NCBI GenBank assembly: GCA_018302815.1
Contig: JAGVZE010000007.1
Span: 62,001 to 126,000, forward strand
Source: Candidatus Woesearchaeota archaeon
GTDB taxonomy: Archaea; Nanobdellota; Nanobdellia; Woesearchaeales; ARS49
DNA length: 64,000 nucleotides
Reading direction: 5' to 3'
Below the pieces are notes generated by a model. That model worked only from the letters and a program-made list of their open reading frames with translations, did no database searches and had not been told where the DNA came from. The first letter of the stretch is position 1; the number at the start of each line of letters is the position of its first letter. Positions 21,661 through 62,511 of the stretch are shown piece by piece. A program made the position numbers and the translations under genes.

Positions 21661-22515
21661 ATGGAATACCTTGTTCTTAAACCCGGAGAATTGCGCGGTT
21701 TTCTTCAAAATTCAAAGAAAAAGTTAACGTTCACATGGGACGAGTTCGCCAGATTTCTTGGCGTGAATCGAAGCATGATTTTCTTCTATTTACAGGAAAA
21801 GTCAAAGTTTCCTCTCAGTCATTATGAGTTTATATGCAAGAAGCTCAACGTTTCACCTATTAAGTTCAATACGGTTAACATAACAAATAAGTTAAAAAAA
21901 GTTCAGTTTCCCGAACAATCCGAACAGCTTGCAGAATTCCTTGGCATCATGGCAGGAGATGGACATCTTGGACGTCCAGCATACGAAATCTCGATTGCTC
22001 TTGACAAAAACTCGGATAAAGACTACGTCTATCATGTTTCTGCGCTTCTTGAAGATATTTTCAAAACAAAGCCCTCAATCTATCATCAGAATAACATAAC
22101 TCGTGTAAAAATCTATTCAAAGGAATTATTCAATTTTCTTCATCTGAGTCTTGGAATGATTTCAGGCAATAAAATGAACAAGTTGCGAATCCCCTCTTTC
22201 ATTTTGAGCAATAGATTATTCTTGGCAGCATTTTTGCGCGGTGTTTTTGATACTGATGGAAGTTTTCATCGACACCGCCCAACAGACGCAGCAGCAGAAA
22301 TAACCAGCGCAGACGCTCGATTTTTACAAGAAGTAACCGCGGCCCTTCTTTTCCTTGGAATCAGAGCAACTTCATCAGGAAGAAATGTGTACATTTACTC
22401 TAAAGAACACATTCATCGCTTTTTTATGAAAATCCGACCGTCAAATCCCAAACACCAAGCAAAATACGCGTACTATTGTACACATGGCAAAGTACCACTT
22501 AAAAATGCAATTTAA
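21661..22515 (+). CDS. free-standing HTH-LAGLIDADG endonuclease-like protein, 284 aa
   Basis: The N-terminal 70 residues contain an HTH-like segment (FTWDEFARFLGVNRSMIFFY). Two LAGLIDADG motifs follow: LGIMAGDGHLG (about 94-104, D100) and LRGVFDTDGSF (about 192-202, D199), both with their acidic residues. Such proteins are homing endonucleases or RNA-splicing maturases. It is free-standing, not in an intron or intein, and ends 41 bp before tRNA-Gly on the same strand. TATA-like TTTTTAT (about 21630-21637) sits about 27 bp before ATG 21661. The other two LAGLIDADG genes here are also next to tRNAs. Confidence 0.85.
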   Translation: MEYLVLKPGELRGFLQNSKKKLTFTWDEFARFLGVNRSMIFFYLQEKSKFPLSHYEFICKKLNVSPIKFNTVNITNKLKKVQFPEQSEQLAEFLGIMAGDGHLGRPAYEISIALDKNSDKDYVYHVSALLEDIFKTKPSIYHQNNITRVKIYSKELFNFLHLSLGMISGNKMNKLRIPSFILSNRLFLAAFLRGVFDTDGSFHRHRPTDAAAEITSADARFLQEVTAALLFLGIRATSSGRNVYIYSKEHIHRFFMKIRPSNPKHQAKYAYYCTHGKVPLKNAI

Positions 22516-22556: not shown

Positions 22557-22627
22557 GCGCCGATAATATAGTGGTAGTATCTCACCCTTCCAAGGTGATC
22601 GCCTGGGTTCGAATCCCAGTCGGCGCA
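22557..22627 (+). tRNA. tRNA-Gly (anticodon TCC)
   Basis: Acceptor arms GCGCCGA/TCGGCGC (22557-22563, 22620-22626) pair fully and A22627 is the discriminator. The anticodon arm is TCACC-CTTCCAA-GGTGA and the T arm is CTGGG-TTCGAAT-CCCAG. No intron and no encoded CCA. A TTTAAAT box near 22525 gives the promoter. Confidence 0.97.
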
Positions 22628-22649
22628 TATATTTTAAGTTGCTTCTCTA

Positions 22650-25600
22650 TCAAACCGTCAAATGCTGATACAGTTTCGGCAGAACTTCAGGAAGAAGTTT
22701 AGCGTCCTGAATCTCCCTATACACTGCGACATTTTGTATCTCTCTTAGAGACTCTTCGGGTTTTCCGTAAACTATAACGACCGGCAGGCAGCCGTATTGA
22801 CGCGCCTCAAGACACGCACGCTTGGTATCTTCAATTGCGCGTGCTCCTTCATAACCGAAATCTTGAGGGACTCCCTCCATCAGATAGAACAACAGTTTCA
22901 AACGCTCAGGACAGCTCCTCAACTTAGCCGTCGCGTGGCGAATGCCAGCTCCATCCCTACTCTGCTTCATAGGCATCAAACTGCCGATGCTTGAACGAAT
23001 CGATGCATCGTATGGCGCGTTAAAATCTTTTATCGTATAGAACTCGACACGCTTCTCAGTCTCGCCAGAGACACCGCACAATGCGAACGAATCACCTAAC
23101 GTATCAAGCGCCTCAGAAACGTAAAGCATTGTGTCTCGCACAAGATCTATCAACCTCTTGTCAGGCTTTCTCAAATCGACAAAATTACGCAACGAACCAC
23201 TGAGCTCAGCCGCAACCATCGCGGCAACACTTCGATTATCCTTATATCGTCTAGTGAATAATTTCTCCGAAGGAGTTATGCCAAGCCGCATCTCTGCTTT
23301 AGCTTCAATCCAGCGGTCCATATCAATCTCGCCCGAAAGTTGGCGCTTTCGCACACGATTCTCTTGCGGCCTAAACATCTCAAAGTTGCGCTTCAAACGC
23401 TCCACAACCTCACAATTCTTCGCAAGGAACGCTTCAGCATACGTATTCTTACGCGCAGGAAGAGCAAGTTCGAAAACCTGAACGTGCTGTCTCACATAAT
23501 TCTGCCCATCCCATTCGTCATACAAGAACCTTGAAAGCGCAGCTTGCTGTTTATCCGGCTCTGCCACAAGAAAGTCGACACCGCCATCGCCCACAGCGCT
23601 GATTGCAGGATTAATTGAAAGCACGCTGTCTTGCGCAAACTCCTCTTGCACTTCATCTTTCCAAGTAAGAGCTATCAAATCATACGCCTTGCGGGCAAGC
23701 TTAAAAGAAGATTCTACATCAATGCCGGCGCGCGCTTCATCTATAATTTCGGCAAGAGTATCATCACACGAGCCCCCATAAACCTTTGAACGCATACCCT
23801 GAACCAGTCTCTTAGCCTGAGTGCTACCTTCACATACGCGCTCAAGCAACACCTTATCACAAAACGCCAAATCCTTTCTCAAACCCGCATACTTATTCCT
23901 CAATTGAGCGCCAATACGCGCAAGCTCAACAGTCTCCAAAATACGCAAGGCAAGCTCGCGATTCTCAAATCCATCCAAGAAACCAGACAAATCACCATCA
24001 TATGTTCCGAATTCAACCGCTCCTGCCTGATATGACGCAAGAGCGCGATAAATCTTATAATTCTCATCATTATCTGAAGCCACGCGCACTCTCGATGGAA
24101 GATAAAACGTCTTTCCTTCCAACCTGCACGCGAGCGAATCATCTTCGCTTGCCTGAATCTCTATCTCGCTTCCGGTCAACGCCTGAACGTAAGTCAAAAG
24201 CCTATTCGAGACCTCGCTTAAACGCAAACCGTCAACGAGCGACTCCATTCTTGAAGTGAAATAATCGTCCTTGTCCTGAAGAAAATGCAAAGCATCCTTT
24301 CTATTACCCGCGTGGGCAATTCCTTGCGCTACCCATTCATCAAACTTGTCCGCGTACAACGCAAGAGAACGCTTAGCAGCTTTGACAAACTCTCCTGCAA
24401 GCTCAAGACGCTCCAGATTTTCAGCATCTTTAACTGTTGAAATAATTTTTTGCATACCCGCCAGAATACGCGGTCGGTCAGCCTGACTTACCCCGCATAA
24501 ACCTTCCGCAATATGTTTGAAGGCAGGGAATAACTCATGATAACCGCCCTCTGAAGTTTTCAGCAAATTATTGAGTTCACTAAGCGCAGACCATCCAAGA
24601 GATCTCTCGTACTCGATGCATCCAGCAGCTATAACTGCATACCTGCCCACGTTATCTGTTGATTTTGACGGAAGCTCGCCTAACAATTCATCAAGGTGAG
24701 AAGTAGACTCGAGCGCCGTGCACAAGTTTCTAACAAACGCAAACTTATCACTGCTCTTTTTAGGATCAATAACTGTTTTCGTGCCCTTTTTCTCATCACG
24801 CATACACTGAATAGATTTCCACGCCCTGCTCCACTGCGTTTTAGTCAGCTTATTAGCCAAAACAGGAATCGCGGTCAGAATATCCGCAGAATACTTACCT
24901 TTCGCGTATCCTGCAACGTCAGCAGTCATTATTTTAGACATTTTGTTTCCACCTGACGTGCAAGCCACGCTTCCAACAAGCCGCTCAAGAGATGCGCCTT
25001 CAGACAACTCTTTTCTAGTTAGGTCCGAAACTCCCTCAACCGCAGAATCCATATCTGTTCCGCCAAGACTTCGAATCCTTTCAAGAATCCGCTCATCAAG
25101 AGCCTCATAATGATCACAGTCAACGCTCTTCGCGCGCGCCGCTCTGCGCTCACGATAAATCCCATCAAACGCGGTAACCCACGCCGATCTTTGGTCATCA
25201 CTCAAATTCATGGCTGAAAGTTTCGATAAAAGAAGTATTCTCTGCTTGAAGTCAGGATGAGTCCTATATCTTTTTGCAAGCTTAAGACCATCTGCAGTCG
25301 CTCGTTTAGTCAAAGAAAGCTCTAATACCAAATCGACAAACTCGGGCGATTTGTAGTTCAAGTCTCCAACCACCTCATCGACTGCTGCGGGACCCACTTC
25401 GCACTCGCCATTTGCCTTTGCTTTAGCAATTGTATACAGCTTAGCGCCCAAAGCCTCATCTTTCTTCTTTCTATTGCCGTTTACCTCGAACATGCGTTCC
25501 CATGATCTTAGATCAGAGTTATCAAGCTTGTCCGCAATGGCAAGAAATTCAGCAGACATATCGCCACCAATGTAACTTGCAGCAACCATCGGCGAGAGGA

Positions 25601-26384
25601 GAAGGCGAGGACGCTCTTTTAAAGTCTTCAATACTTTCAAAGCCCGCTTCTTATCCCTATCCAAAGCGAGCTGGTATCCTAACTTGATATACGTTGCAAA
25701 ATCAGCACGACCTTTAAGTTTTTTATCCAGCAATTCAACCCACAAAGGCAAACTTTCACCCATTCCAACAATGTTGCTCCAATGATACATCATATTCAGA
25801 AGAGGATGGTCTGTAAACGAGTGTTCGGGTTTGTGGGGAATCTTCATCAATGAATCCATAGCCTCGTGAAGCAAAACCCTCTGCTTTGGGCTGCTTGAAG
25901 TATAAGCGCTGGTATAATGCCGAATGAACGTGTGATGCAGATATCTCTCTTCACCTAGAAGCTCTCGAACGTATCTATCCGCATATTCTCTTAACGATTT
26001 GAGACCGTCATCAGGACAAGATTTAGCCGCGCGGATAATATGCTCTACGCTCTCGGTTGTATTAACCTCGAATACTTCAACTTTTCGATCCGCCTTTTTT
26101 TCAGACTCTGATTCAGCATCTGCTTCGTTCTCCTCTGATCTAATCTTAGCACATATTTGTATCTTCTTTAGTTTGTGGAAACTCAGAACATACAACGCGA
26201 ATGCGTCCTCAAGCAGTTCAAACGGAACACCCCTTACAAGATCCTCAATATTTTTGTCATCATCAAGAGTTCGGATGTTTGAGTATTGCTCACTAACTTT
26301 TTTGAACGCGTCAAGAACAAAATCCTTCTTATAACTATCATCCTTTGAAAAACATTTAGCGATTCTTTTCTCGAGACTTGTCAT
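22650..26384 (-). CDS. giant CbbO/NorD-like VWA protein, 1244 aa
   Basis: The C-terminal quarter follows NorD/CbbO: YRALASYQAGAVEFGTY, a VWA region with LGDSFALCGVSGE, RDGAGIRHATAKL and EARQYGCLPVVIVYG. The VWA metal site looks altered (ELSGS where DxSxS is usual; MEGVPQD where TDGxPxD is usual), so metal binding may be weakened. The N-terminal 700 residues are helical and not recognised. With its partner MoxR ATPase, one base upstream, it probably forms a remodelling complex like the CbbQ/CbbO Rubisco activase. The target is unknown; no Rubisco is in the window. Confidence 0.75.
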   Translation of the reverse strand: MTSLEKRIAKCFSKDDSYKKDFVLDAFKKVSEQYSNIRTLDDDKNIEDLVRGVPFELLEDAFALYVLSFHKLKKIQICAKIRSEENEADAESESEKKADRKVEVFEVNTTESVEHIIRAAKSCPDDGLKSLREYADRYVRELLGEERYLHHTFIRHYTSAYTSSSPKQRVLLHEAMDSLMKIPHKPEHSFTDHPLLNMMYHWSNIVGMGESLPLWVELLDKKLKGRADFATYIKLGYQLALDRDKKRALKVLKTLKERPRLLLSPMVAASYIGGDMSAEFLAIADKLDNSDLRSWERMFEVNGNRKKKDEALGAKLYTIAKAKANGECEVGPAAVDEVVGDLNYKSPEFVDLVLELSLTKRATADGLKLAKRYRTHPDFKQRILLLSKLSAMNLSDDQRSAWVTAFDGIYRERRAARAKSVDCDHYEALDERILERIRSLGGTDMDSAVEGVSDLTRKELSEGASLERLVGSVACTSGGNKMSKIMTADVAGYAKGKYSADILTAIPVLANKLTKTQWSRAWKSIQCMRDEKKGTKTVIDPKKSSDKFAFVRNLCTALESTSHLDELLGELPSKSTDNVGRYAVIAAGCIEYERSLGWSALSELNNLLKTSEGGYHELFPAFKHIAEGLCGVSQADRPRILAGMQKIISTVKDAENLERLELAGEFVKAAKRSLALYADKFDEWVAQGIAHAGNRKDALHFLQDKDDYFTSRMESLVDGLRLSEVSNRLLTYVQALTGSEIEIQASEDDSLACRLEGKTFYLPSRVRVASDNDENYKIYRALASYQAGAVEFGTYDGDLSGFLDGFENRELALRILETVELARIGAQLRNKYAGLRKDLAFCDKVLLERVCEGSTQAKRLVQGMRSKVYGGSCDDTLAEIIDEARAGIDVESSFKLARKAYDLIALTWKDEVQEEFAQDSVLSINPAISAVGDGGVDFLVAEPDKQQAALSRFLYDEWDGQNYVRQHVQVFELALPARKNTYAEAFLAKNCEVVERLKRNFEMFRPQENRVRKRQLSGEIDMDRWIEAKAEMRLGITPSEKLFTRRYKDNRSVAAMVAAELSGSLRNFVDLRKPDKRLIDLVRDTMLYVSEALDTLGDSFALCGVSGETEKRVEFYTIKDFNAPYDASIRSSIGSLMPMKQSRDGAGIRHATAKLRSCPERLKLLFYLMEGVPQDFGYEGARAIEDTKRACLEARQYGCLPVVIVYGKPEESLREIQNVAVYREIQDAKLLPEVLPKLYQHLTV

Positions 26385-26385
26385 C

Positions 26386-27228
26386 TCACTCAGGGAAGAA
26401 GCTTCTCACCACGTCCGCAAGCCCATCATGGACGGAACGGTACGCCTCAACATCATCGGTTATGGGATTCAAGATAGCGGCCTCACAAGCGACAAGCGGA
26501 GATATTCCTTTGCGGATGAATTTTCCAGCATTGATCAGAAGCCTTGTGCTCGCGCCTTCCTCAAGCCCTTTGCCTTTCGCGTTGCGAATCTTGGCTCCAA
26601 TCTGCGTCAGAGCCTGCGCAGTAGACTGCTCAATACCTGCCTCTTTCATGATAATCTGAGTCTCTATATCCTTAGACGGATAAGAAAAATTGATGGCAAC
26701 AAAACGCTGTTTAGTGCTTTGCTTGAGGTCTTTAGTTTTCTTCTGATATCCGGGGTTGTATGAAACCCAAAGACTGAACGTGTCGGGCGCTTCGAACACT
26801 TTTCCAAGCCGTTCGACAGTCATAATCCTGCGGTCATCGCCAAGAGGGTGAATCACGACAATAGTATCCTGGCGCGCCTCAACAACCTCGTCCAGATAAA
26901 GAAGGCCGCCTTTTTTCACTGCGACAAGCGCCGGACCATCTTCGAACTTGCCGCTAAGCAAATAACGGCCTTTGAGGTCATCAGCAGTCAAATCCTCATG
27001 GCAGTTCACGGTCACAAGAGGAGTCCTCCTGCCATTTTTTTGATTGAACCTGTACGCCATATATTGCACGAAACGAGATTTTCCGCAGCCAGTTGGACCT
27101 TTAAGCATGACAGGAATCTTCTCAGCATACGCTTCCTCTGCAAGCCTAATCTCCCCATTCACTTCCATATAGAACGGCTCGCTATCAGGAGAGTACTCGC
27201 TAATCTTCCACTCAAGCTGCTTTTTCAT
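26386..27228 (-). CDS. MoxR-family AAA+ ATPase, CbbQ/NorQ type, 280 aa
   Basis: Walker A GPTGCGKS (residues about 44-51) and Walker B LLYLDEV are clear. The order of motifs and C-terminal part match the CbbQ/NirQ/NorQ group. These hexameric ATPases work with VWA proteins to remodel or insert cofactors into target enzymes. The VWA partner starts one base after this stop. AAGGGGT lies about 5 nt upstream of ATG 27228. It is the middle gene of a three-gene operon with the promoter near 27850. Confidence 0.9.
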   Translation of the reverse strand: MKKQLEWKISEYSPDSEPFYMEVNGEIRLAEEAYAEKIPVMLKGPTGCGKSRFVQYMAYRFNQKNGRRTPLVTVNCHEDLTADDLKGRYLLSGKFEDGPALVAVKKGGLLYLDEVVEARQDTIVVIHPLGDDRRIMTVERLGKVFEAPDTFSLWVSYNPGYQKKTKDLKQSTKQRFVAINFSYPSKDIETQIIMKEAGIEQSTAQALTQIGAKIRNAKGKGLEEGASTRLLINAGKFIRKGISPLVACEAAILNPITDDVEAYRSVHDGLADVVRSFFPE

Positions 27229-27239
27229 AAAACCCCTTA

Positions 27240-27803
27240 CTAGTAATGTATAGGACCGTACCTTGCGTTCCTTGGAAGCATAGGCAATCCTTCTTGGATG
27301 TTACGCTCCATCAACTGCAAGATGACGTGGTTATTGTTGTTGTCCATCTCAATTTCCCGGCTAAGCTGTTCAAGAGTGCTTTCAAATCTCGAAGAACCCT
27401 CTGTAGCTGAAAGCCAATAGAGAGTCTCGTTAATATCAAGTGAAAGAACCTGATTCGTGATAGAAAAGACTCTTCGAAGGCAGGTAGGCTCAATATTGAT
27501 TCGTCCATCATTAAACTTGTTTGTGCGATAGTCCCATCTGTACAAAGTGCCATCAAGACCTTCGATTTCGATGGTTTGAGTCACAACGTAAGGCGGCAAA
27601 GCAGGGCTTGGCTCGCTCTGAGGAACACCGAGCGCTGAATGCGCAGCTCTGCTTGGCTCTTCTCCGAAATAAACACGCTTTCGTACCGCAGACTGTCTGA
27701 ACGCTTTGTCCATCGGCGTATCCATATTATCTGTTGGAAAAAAATGGCTAATAGGCTCTCCTTCTTCTAATCTCTCATGTAATGGTTTGTCTCCCTTGTT
27801 CAT
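27240..27803 (-). CDS. uncharacterised first gene of the MoxR/VWA operon, 187 aa
   Basis: Not recognised. It has a charged N-terminus, a beta-rich middle (TQTIEIEGLDGTLYRWDYR) and a helical C-terminus. It may be a substrate or adaptor for the MoxR/VWA pair. ATG 27803 is preferred because GGGGTGA lies about 5 nt upstream; the frame also opens at GTG 27833. TATA-like CTTTATAAAG (27849-27858) gives a short leader. The next gene starts 11 nt after its stop. Confidence 0.6.
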   Translation of the reverse strand: MNKGDKPLHERLEEGEPISHFFPTDNMDTPMDKAFRQSAVRKRVYFGEEPSRAAHSALGVPQSEPSPALPPYVVTQTIEIEGLDGTLYRWDYRTNKFNDGRINIEPTCLRRVFSITNQVLSLDINETLYWLSATEGSSRFESTLEQLSREIEMDNNNNHVILQLMERNIQEGLPMLPRNARYGPIHY

Positions 27804-27945
27804 TGTCTTCACCCCGAAGTGGTTATTAATCACTATTTTTGGTGATTTTCTTTATAAAGCTTTCGCTCAGATACGAATAAAATCGACACTGCGGCAAACC
27901 TTCTGCTGGCAATACTTATCTCGTCTACAACACCTTTTCAAACAT

Positions 27946-28087
27946 CGGAATTCCACCATTCTGATGAATGGTGGTTTGCTCGATCGCAAACCACAATAGG
28001 GTGAAATTCCGAGTGTGCTCAAAAACCACCAGTCACTCGTCATGCCACCGGTGTTGAGCGCCACAGCGCGATCACCGGTGGTTTTTG
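27946..28087. repeat. chained-hairpin intergenic element with alternative pairings
   Basis: The first block is closed by CGGAATT/AATTCCG (27946-27952, 28005-28011). It holds CCACCATTC-TGAT-GAATGGTGG, followed by GTGGTTTGC-N6-GCAAACCAC; both hairpins need the same GTGG. The second block has CAAAAACCACC/GGTGGTTTTTG as outer arms (28020-28030, 28077-28087). Inside are CCACCGGTG/CACCGGTGG and a GCGC-CACA-GCGC tip, again sharing GGTGG. It ends 7 bp before the next start codon. It could be a structured leader, a terminator or a repeat element. Confidence 0.65.
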
Positions 28088-28094
28088 ACACAAT

Positions 28095-28544
28095 ATGACA
28101 CACGAACAAACATTCGAGGAACTGATGTCAAAACCCGCAACGCTATGCCTTTGCGTAATGCGCGAAGGCACGACGCACCTCTCAAACGTTGAATACTGGA
28201 AAGGAAACTCGTTTAGCATCGCAGCGCCAAGCGCCTCAATATCAAAATTCGCCCACAAAAACGGAAAATCAGCCTATGAAAGAATAATCCACTGCGAAGA
28301 CATAATGATAGACGCGCGCGAAATAACAAAACAAGAAAACATCTACCTAATCAAAGGCTCAGCGCAACACCATGAACTTGCGTTAGGCTCAGGCTACAAA
28401 ATTCTTGAGGGAGAATACTTTCTCAAAGTCGAGCAGACACGCGGGAAAAACGGACCACAACAAAGCAACCTTACGCTAATACTGCTCGCGGATGGCGGAC
28501 CAGTATTATCACAGCCAAGCTATGATGATCGCCTGCAAGGTTAA
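28095..28544 (+). CDS. hypothetical protein, 149 aa
   Basis: Not recognised. It is predicted soluble and mostly beta-stranded, with no clear motif. The start at ATG 28095 is the first in frame, but neither a ribosome site nor a TATA box at 27 bp is visible. Instead a strong stem-loop region ends 7 bp upstream, which may control expression. Its stop lies in GTTAAATAG, which has the form of a TATA box, but no convincing gene follows on this strand. Confidence 0.55.
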   Translation: MTHEQTFEELMSKPATLCLCVMREGTTHLSNVEYWKGNSFSIAAPSASISKFAHKNGKSAYERIIHCEDIMIDAREITKQENIYLIKGSAQHHELALGSGYKILEGEYFLKVEQTRGKNGPQQSNLTLILLADGGPVLSQPSYDDRLQG

Positions 28545-28616
28545 ATAGCGCAACGTATCTACTCGTGAAGACAATGAGTTCTGGCACTTAACCAGTTAAT
28601 GTTAAGCGCATAGTAT

Positions 28617-28967
28617 TCATACTACGTTCACTTTTGTTCTGAAATATTCTTCTGTGGTCCTTTTGCATCCAGTAACATTAGTCTTGAACTCATGCGGATT
28701 TGGAACCATGCCGATATTACCCTGTTCTATAAGCTGCCCATCAAGCCCATATAATTCAATGTTACAGCTATCAATCCCACAAGATGAAACGCTATATACT
28801 CTCATTTCAGTCAAAACATCTTCACATACTGAATATACAATATCACCGAATCCAGGTCTTGGCAGCTCATCATTAATTGGAAAATCATATTGTTTTTCCT
28901 GCGAAACACAACCTAGCAATATCATCATTCCTGCTAACGCCACAATAATACTAACTTTTGCTCTCAT
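28617..28967 (-). CDS. small lipoprotein, 116 aa
   Basis: The signal peptide ends in the lipobox LLGC (Cys at residue 20). The mature part is about 97 residues with several cysteines (SVCED, SCGIDSC, TGCKR), probably disulfide-bonded outside the cell. The fold is not recognised. A TTTAA box near 28995 is about 27 bp upstream of ATG 28967, giving a leaderless mRNA. The gene stands alone between two + strand genes. Confidence 0.65.
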   Translation of the reverse strand: MRAKVSIIVALAGMMILLGCVSQEKQYDFPINDELPRPGFGDIVYSVCEDVLTEMRVYSVSSCGIDSCNIELYGLDGQLIEQGNIGMVPNPHEFKTNVTGCKRTTEEYFRTKVNVV

Positions 28968-29092
28968 CTAAGTCATTGAAATGGTCGTAGTATTAAATGC
29001 AGCGAAATTGTTAGGCTTTCACCTAATCAACAGATAATAGATTCTGATACGATTTGTACGGCAATATCATTTTATACCATTTGGCCGACCTC

Positions 29093-62413: not shown

Positions 62414-62511
62414 GGGGGTATAGTTCAGCCCGGGAGAACACATGCGCCTAATAAGCGCAGTTTAGACCGCTGAAGCCGGTGACGTCGCCGGTTCAAATCC
62501 GGCTACCCCCA
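62414..62511 (+). tRNA. tRNA-Phe (GAA) with a 24-nt intron at about position 27/28
   Basis: Acceptor GGGGGTA/TACCCCC with A73, D arm GTTC/GAAC and T arm GCCGG-TTCAAAT-CCGGC are clear. After A26-C27 come 24 extra bases (62440-62463) that form the hairpin TGCGC-CTAATAA-GCGCA. Then ACCG-CTGAAGC-CGGTG completes a perfect anticodon arm CACCG/CGGTG with anticodon GAA and a 5-nt variable loop. Removal leaves exactly 74 nt. Reading the intron hairpin as the anticodon arm would give a false tRNA-Ile(AAT) with an impossible variable region. No encoded CCA. Confidence 0.88.

Follow-up and report, generated by a model that had tools for sequence, protein, structure and literature searches.

The three-gene operon and its motor

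An operon of three minus-strand genes, read from position 27803 to 22650, lies in the 64,000-nucleotide stretch of contig JAGVZE010000007.1 (positions 62,001 to 126,000, Candidatus Woesearchaeota archaeon) analysed here, hereafter the window. It encodes a small accessory protein, a MoxR AAA+ ATPase of the CbbQ/NorQ type and a long protein ending in a von Willebrand factor A (VWA) domain. The genes are spaced by 11 nt and then 1 nt, and a Shine-Dalgarno-like GGGGTG precedes the ATG of the first gene at 27803. The genome (G000) is 1.55 Mb long and 100% complete; archaeal Nre proteins were recognised in it with Pfam, and its lineage is probably of DPANN type.

27240..27803, minus strand: first gene, accessory protein of the family named RVF here, 187 aa (open reading frame (ORF); no database match)
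26386..27228, minus strand: CbbQ/NorQ-type MoxR AAA+ ATPase, 280 aa (Pfam AAA_5 and CbbQ_C, family profile)
22650..26384, minus strand: VWA partner, 1244 aa, with an N-terminal part of ~600 aa, a middle region and a C-terminal NorD-type VWA domain (ORF and NorD 9qhd profile)

The motor matched the AAA_5 core (1.7e-26) and CbbQ_C (2.2e-26) in Pfam with 93.3 and 92.3 bits, far over the gathering scores of 22 and 20.6, and its family profile retrieved CbbQ 5c3c with E=5e-114 and NorQ with E=1e-101. The nearest AAA+ proteins of solved structure are the CbbQ entries 5c3c and 6l1q. Walker A (GPTGCGKS) and Walker B (LLYLDE) are retained in the relatives, along with other invariant columns. The ATPase, called normal in an earlier sequence-only reading of this DNA, is thus of canonical CbbQ/NorQ type; it shows the features of the CbbQ/NorQ (CGN) branch of MoxR AAA+ proteins, including an adjacent downstream VWA partner of the finger type, and is single-copy in the whole genome. 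As to a gas-vesicle client, a GvpN model reached 36 bits on the motor against a cut-off of 266.8, and PF00741 (GvpA) gave no match, its control being silent too. In the CbbQ tree, the window motor pairs with that of genome G003 and not with that of G006, so exchange between operons is possible.

A rebuilt metal site in the VWA domain

The VWA domain was not recognised in a Pfam scan of the window protein. A profile of eight relatives covered the entire VWA domain of NorD (two solved NorD proteins, 9qhd) with E=2e-70, the match extending over the finger region and the C-terminus. The metal ion-dependent adhesion site (MIDAS) was placed on this NorD-anchored alignment and on an alignment of 17 relatives.

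22653..23582, minus strand: VWA domain, including the part that aligns with the NorD finger and the conserved C-terminus (LYxxLTV) (relatives' alignment, PDB alignment to NorD)
23193..23207, minus strand: MIDAS strand 1, E1060-L-S-G-S1064 in place of DxSxS (NorD-anchored and relatives' alignments)
22953..22961, minus strand: MIDAS loop 2, S1142-R-D1144 in place of Thr, N.D in most relatives (alignments)
22872..22880, minus strand: MIDAS loop 3, M1169-E1170-G1171 in place of (T/S)DG (alignments)

NorD carries DVSRS, TRLG and TDG, whereas the window protein carries ELSGS, SRDG and MEG, with the ligand positions E1060, S1062, S1064, S1142 (Thr in NorD) and E1170 (Asp in NorD). Both Asp to Glu exchanges of the sequence-only reading (ELSGS for DxSxS and MEG for TDG) are borne out by the two alignments, while a third substitution, Thr to Ser (Asn in most relatives), had escaped it. 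Misalignment was ruled out, since the NorD match spans the domain, 17 relatives were aligned and four orthologs all carry E-x-S-x-S. The intact MIDAS typical of NorQD (DxSxS-T-D) and of the VWA partner in CbbQO is replaced in the window by E/S/S/S/E.

The four orthologs, from the window, G006, G003 and G404, form an E-type group in which three members have MEG and G003 has TDG. The Glu, both Ser and the +2 Asp are invariant in 4/4 although only 20% of columns are, and the altered site therefore looks maintained in its new form. In a tree computed without the MIDAS columns the four proteins still cluster (support 93/88), which is consistent with a single origin of the first Asp to Glu exchange; the second would have arisen either twice, or once with a reversion in G003. 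In a second clade (G062, G104, G392 and G432, with G391 more distant), the second acid is gone and, in most cases, so is the first, the pattern being N/D-Q-S-K.

The canonical D, S, S and D are retained in nine relatives, namely those of Methanococcoides, an Aenigmatarchaeote, G121 and six shorter VWA proteins, most of which have N.D in place of Thr. These nine share no more than 19 invariant columns out of 259, and the persistence of Asp across such deep divergence makes neutral drift an unlikely cause of the exchange to Glu. The sequence-only reading had allowed that orthologous VWA proteins might keep all MIDAS residues; a full site was found only in the more distant relatives and not within the clade. 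The G121 VWA protein (locus L043, 5181-8973) is encoded by two overlapping ORFs of 722 and 546 aa with a canonical MIDAS, representing either a natural split or a frameshift.

Reported MIDAS mutants of NorD, CbbO and ChlD nearly all fail (PMC9976466, PMC4660213, PMC6604950). NorD T534V and D562N lost function and retained NorQ binding (PMC9976466), and alanine mutants of the CbbO MIDAS did not activate Rubisco and mostly kept ATPase activity (PMC4660213). ChlD D487E, the same first-position change as in the window, abolished activity, weakened the effect of Mg2+ on ChlH binding and was predicted to clash with Mg2+ (PMC6604950). In NorQD, remodelling requires the finger and docking depends on the C-terminus (PMC13036017). 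Given that finger and C-terminus are conserved here and that MIDAS mutants elsewhere are inactive, the coupling to the motor appears to have been kept and the metal grip altered; the window site may bind no metal.

Partner gene, N-terminal region and insertion site

The product of the first gene had no match in Pfam, NCBIfam, PADLOC, PHROG or PDB, in line with its description as new in the sequence-only reading, and its family was defined here as RVF from a core motif, RVF...LD..TL..L..E..N, within the C-terminal ~110 aa. CsgG and cystatin came up as PDB candidates at E 0.25-0.97 and were dismissed as noise. Homologs stand upstream of the CbbQ gene in G006, G003, G062, G104 (two copies), G392, G404 (~520 nt upstream of the motor gene) and G432. 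The G006 and window first genes share 35% identity (9e-15), those of G062, G104, G392 and G432 are mutually homologous, and both sets carry the RVF core.

Across the order, a search for the first gene, as the earlier reading had advised, matched 9 of 353 genomes, eight of them long-VWA genomes. RVF is present in 8/9 long-VWA genomes versus 1/344 others (Fisher 1.5e-14), a co-occurrence that is partly built in because the search profile, A6, included operon-linked RVF genes, and whose weight thus lies in the absence of RVF elsewhere. Eight of the nine long-VWA operons examined have an RVF-type gene upstream of the motor. A model from which G003 was left out ranked operon-first genes 1, 2, 3, 5 and 6 among 936 ORFs (hypergeometric 1e-10). 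Some of these genes belong to shorter-VWA operons, which suggests that archaeal operons of this kind may generally begin with a related gene. Homology and gene order mark the first gene as a third, conserved component of the operon.

The ninth match, an orphan RVF gene in G162 (L097, 8518-9039), has as neighbours a 114-aa gene and the gene of a GajB-like UvrD-HRDC helicase; motor and VWA genes were not detected with it. The shorter CbbQ-VWA operons (L045, L047, L041 9204-10028, L080, L078 and L079) start with genes of 240-300 aa from other families; their MIDAS Asp residues are intact, and most have N.DG in place of the Thr.

The N-terminal region of the VWA protein, which the sequence-only reading had called an unknown region of 700 residues, gave no Pfam, NCBIfam, PHROG or PADLOC match, and about 600 of its residues are unshared even with the nearest relatives.

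24573..26384, minus strand: N-terminal ~604 residues of the VWA protein, without detectable similarity to the closest orthologs; all-helical in a low-confidence prediction (shuffle z, low-pLDDT model; pLDDT, predicted local distance difference test)

Shuffle z scores between the window and G006 proteins were 141 for the VWA region, 48 for the middle region and 0.1 for the N-terminal 604/608 residues. The same lack of similarity holds against G003 and G404, the lengths being alike, and the pattern would be explained by domain swapping or by very rapid divergence. The VWA N-termini of the second clade (the G062 group) are still related to each other. A low-confidence model contains only helices in this region.

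The operon was inserted at a tRNA-Gly locus and was probably acquired horizontally.

22557..22627, plus strand: tRNA-Gly(TCC), left border of the inserted interval (ARAGORN; same tRNA in a relative with an empty site)
22628..29053, no strand: inserted interval of ~6.4 kb from tRNA-Gly to an HNH gene, holding the operon (comparison with G013)

The empty site in G013 reads DHH, tRNA-Gly, HNH, PIG-L, SMC, with tRNA-Gly directly beside HNH. The same site holds an HD-domain protein in G005 and a PtuB-like HNH in G023; the tRNA-Gly(TCC)-HNH interval at 22557-29053 is an insertion hotspot in this family. Three of the 26 genomes of the family have the operon, which occurs in five families of the order. 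In G003 it adjoins the same PIG-L gene with the relative strand reversed; PIG-L, considered as a partner or client, marks the insertion locus and is not evidently a partner. Locus L041 of G003 (G003:C8, 5870-14796) is island-like and holds two different CbbQ-VWA three-gene systems ~3.5 kb apart.

Neither a tRNA attachment-site scar nor a viral origin was supported: the window contains no repeat of at least 12 bases of the tRNA-Gly end, no integrase was recognised in the interval, IMG/VR gave no match to the VWA or CbbQ profile, and phage records gave none to VWA. Two further interval ORFs, at 28095-28544 (149 aa) and 28617-28967 (116 aa, lipoprotein-like), have no homologs at the other loci examined. 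Just upstream of tRNA-Gly, 21661-22515 encodes a helix-turn-helix and LAGLIDADG homing-endonuclease-like protein. Elsewhere in the window, a 98-nt tRNA-Ile call at 62414-62511 has the anticodon AAT, odd for an archaeon, and is possibly intron-bearing or misread.

Clients, mechanism and known systems

The sequence-only reading had noted no Rubisco or NO reductase nearby, and this holds genome-wide: whole-genome family searches of the complete genome found neither Rubisco (PF00016) nor NorB-type COX1 (PF00115), which excludes both as distant clients. COX1-family (NorB) proteins were found in 0/11 genomes, with a positive control in 8/14, and Rubisco in 1/8 RVF genomes versus 70/353 overall. By client, the operon thus falls outside both NorQD (cytochrome c- or quinol-dependent NO reductase, cNOR/qNOR) and CbbQO (Rubisco). 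No conserved operon neighbour was found as a client at the loci compared. As the cassette is spread over several families and no other gene was found to accompany it consistently, its client should lie in the cassette, be universal in these cells or be foreign. Alignments and family searches together uphold the earlier picture of a pair resembling CbbQ/CbbO, with a truly altered MIDAS and no known client, and searches of the open-access literature on DPANN MoxR and CbbQ-type archaeal systems yielded no description of such a cassette.

The explanation that we favour, with moderate confidence, is a horizontally acquired three-component MoxR-VWA remodeller, similar to NorQD and CbbQO, in which client contact has moved to the N-terminal domain and RVF. 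The three proteins would form a complex working like NorQD or CbbQO, with motor, finger region and C-terminal contact kept. With the MIDAS rebuilt as E/S/S/S-D/E, it is unlikely that a carboxylate of the client is still gripped by way of a canonical Mg2+. The client would instead be recognised by the large N-terminal domain, which is specific to the lineage, and by RVF, perhaps a dedicated adaptor of this motor or a subunit that presents the substrate to it. Several observations weigh against this remodeller. Glu can still ligate Mg2+, and S-x-S and D1144 are present, so that metal binding with an altered geometry may persist. Structure models of RVF (pLDDT 38, single sequence) and of VWA residues 45-1244 (pLDDT 40, three sequences) were of insufficient quality for fold searches. 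Besides the composition of profile A6, the RVF homology between the two clades is weak in pairwise comparison (hhalign P 0.016) and rests mainly on synteny and the leave-out ranking, and the long VWA proteins of Methanococcoides and G121 appear to run without an RVF gene.

Three other readings, which overlap in part with this one, rank below it in the order given here. The operon could encode an ordinary MoxR-VWA chaperone in which Glu replaces Asp, Mg2+ is still bound, a host metalloenzyme is gripped and the first gene is a minor helper. Each exchange preserves a carboxylate, all four E-type proteins still have S-x-S and the +2 Asp, and G003 has Asp at the last position. We nevertheless consider this reading rather unlikely: D, S, S and D are kept in nine deeply diverged relatives, ChlD D487E is inactive, the sister clade has dispensed with the acids altogether yet has the same kind of partner gene, and a patchy, inserted distribution is ill-suited to a housekeeping client.

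That distribution (8 of 353 genomes, five families), the other cargo at the locus, the N-terminal region unshared among close orthologs and the paired systems of G003 would suit a conflict system against viruses or elements, in which the N-terminal region would act as a variable sensor and RVF would serve as adaptor or effector. There is a precedent in MoxR-vWA ternary conflict systems, some of whose vWA proteins lack one or both MIDAS Asp (PMC7159879). Nothing direct speaks for defence, however: none of the three proteins has a recognisable effector (nuclease, protease or pore), VWA and RVF have no PADLOC match, and there is no VMAP, iSTAND or known third component. We hold this to be slightly less probable than the chaperone, and its more specific form, a mobile archaeal conflict system whose metal-independent VWA, swappable N-terminal sensor and RVF adaptor or effector replace the Mg2+ grip, a shade less probable again. 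MoxR operons often carry their own client, as in the nor and cbb clusters, and RVF is the sole partner conserved with the motor in a cassette that moves without any other conserved gene. RVF as the client, an apo-enzyme or assembly subunit matured by the motor, is nonetheless the most doubtful reading, since the protein is small and fast evolving, has no invariant catalytic or metal-ligand pattern (only R, L and E are invariant in A6) and stands alone in G162, a genome in which no motor was detected. The tie of the first gene to the system, proposed in the sequence-only reading, stands with 8/9 operons, whereas the client role suggested there does not stand out, an adaptor or effector being equally possible.

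In the current view, MoxR-VWA machines hold on to clients by means of the MIDAS metal. In the natural lineages described here that site is rebuilt or erased, motor, finger region and C-terminal contact are retained, and a new partner gene has joined the operon. Such lineages allow a test of whether the MIDAS is a grip that can be outsourced, with RVF as a defined third protein to follow, and the three possible locations of the client narrow the search for it.

Like the MoxR-vWA ternary systems (VMAP, iSTAND), the operon comprises MoxR, vWA and a dedicated third protein. It differs in that third protein: neither the first gene nor the VWA protein matched any Pfam family at E values up to 1, and hence no VMAP or inactive STAND. 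It also has no effector domain fused C-terminal to the vWA, the window protein stopping at the VWA C-terminus. Magnesium chelatase ChlI/ChlD likewise pairs an AAA+ motor with a VWA domain, and the Asp to Glu exchange was made there artificially (PMC6604950); it inactivates ChlD, which is itself an AAA-VWA fusion, and no ChlH-like client was identified here. In CbbQ/CbbO the MIDAS is perfect and activation is lost on mutation (PMC4660213), whereas the window genome has no Rubisco; CbbQ supplies the AAA+ structures nearest to the window motor (5c3c, 6l1q), and both systems have a long, poorly conserved region before the VWA domain. NorQ/NorD, which serves iron insertion into cNOR, differs by its D/S/S/T/D MIDAS against E/S/S/S/E in the window, where the VWA protein is twice as long, an RVF gene is added and the genome lacks COX1. 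Both have a CbbQ_C-type AAA+ gene followed by a VWA gene, with finger region and C-terminal contact matched, and the cassette is a real variant of the NorQD/CbbQO kind.

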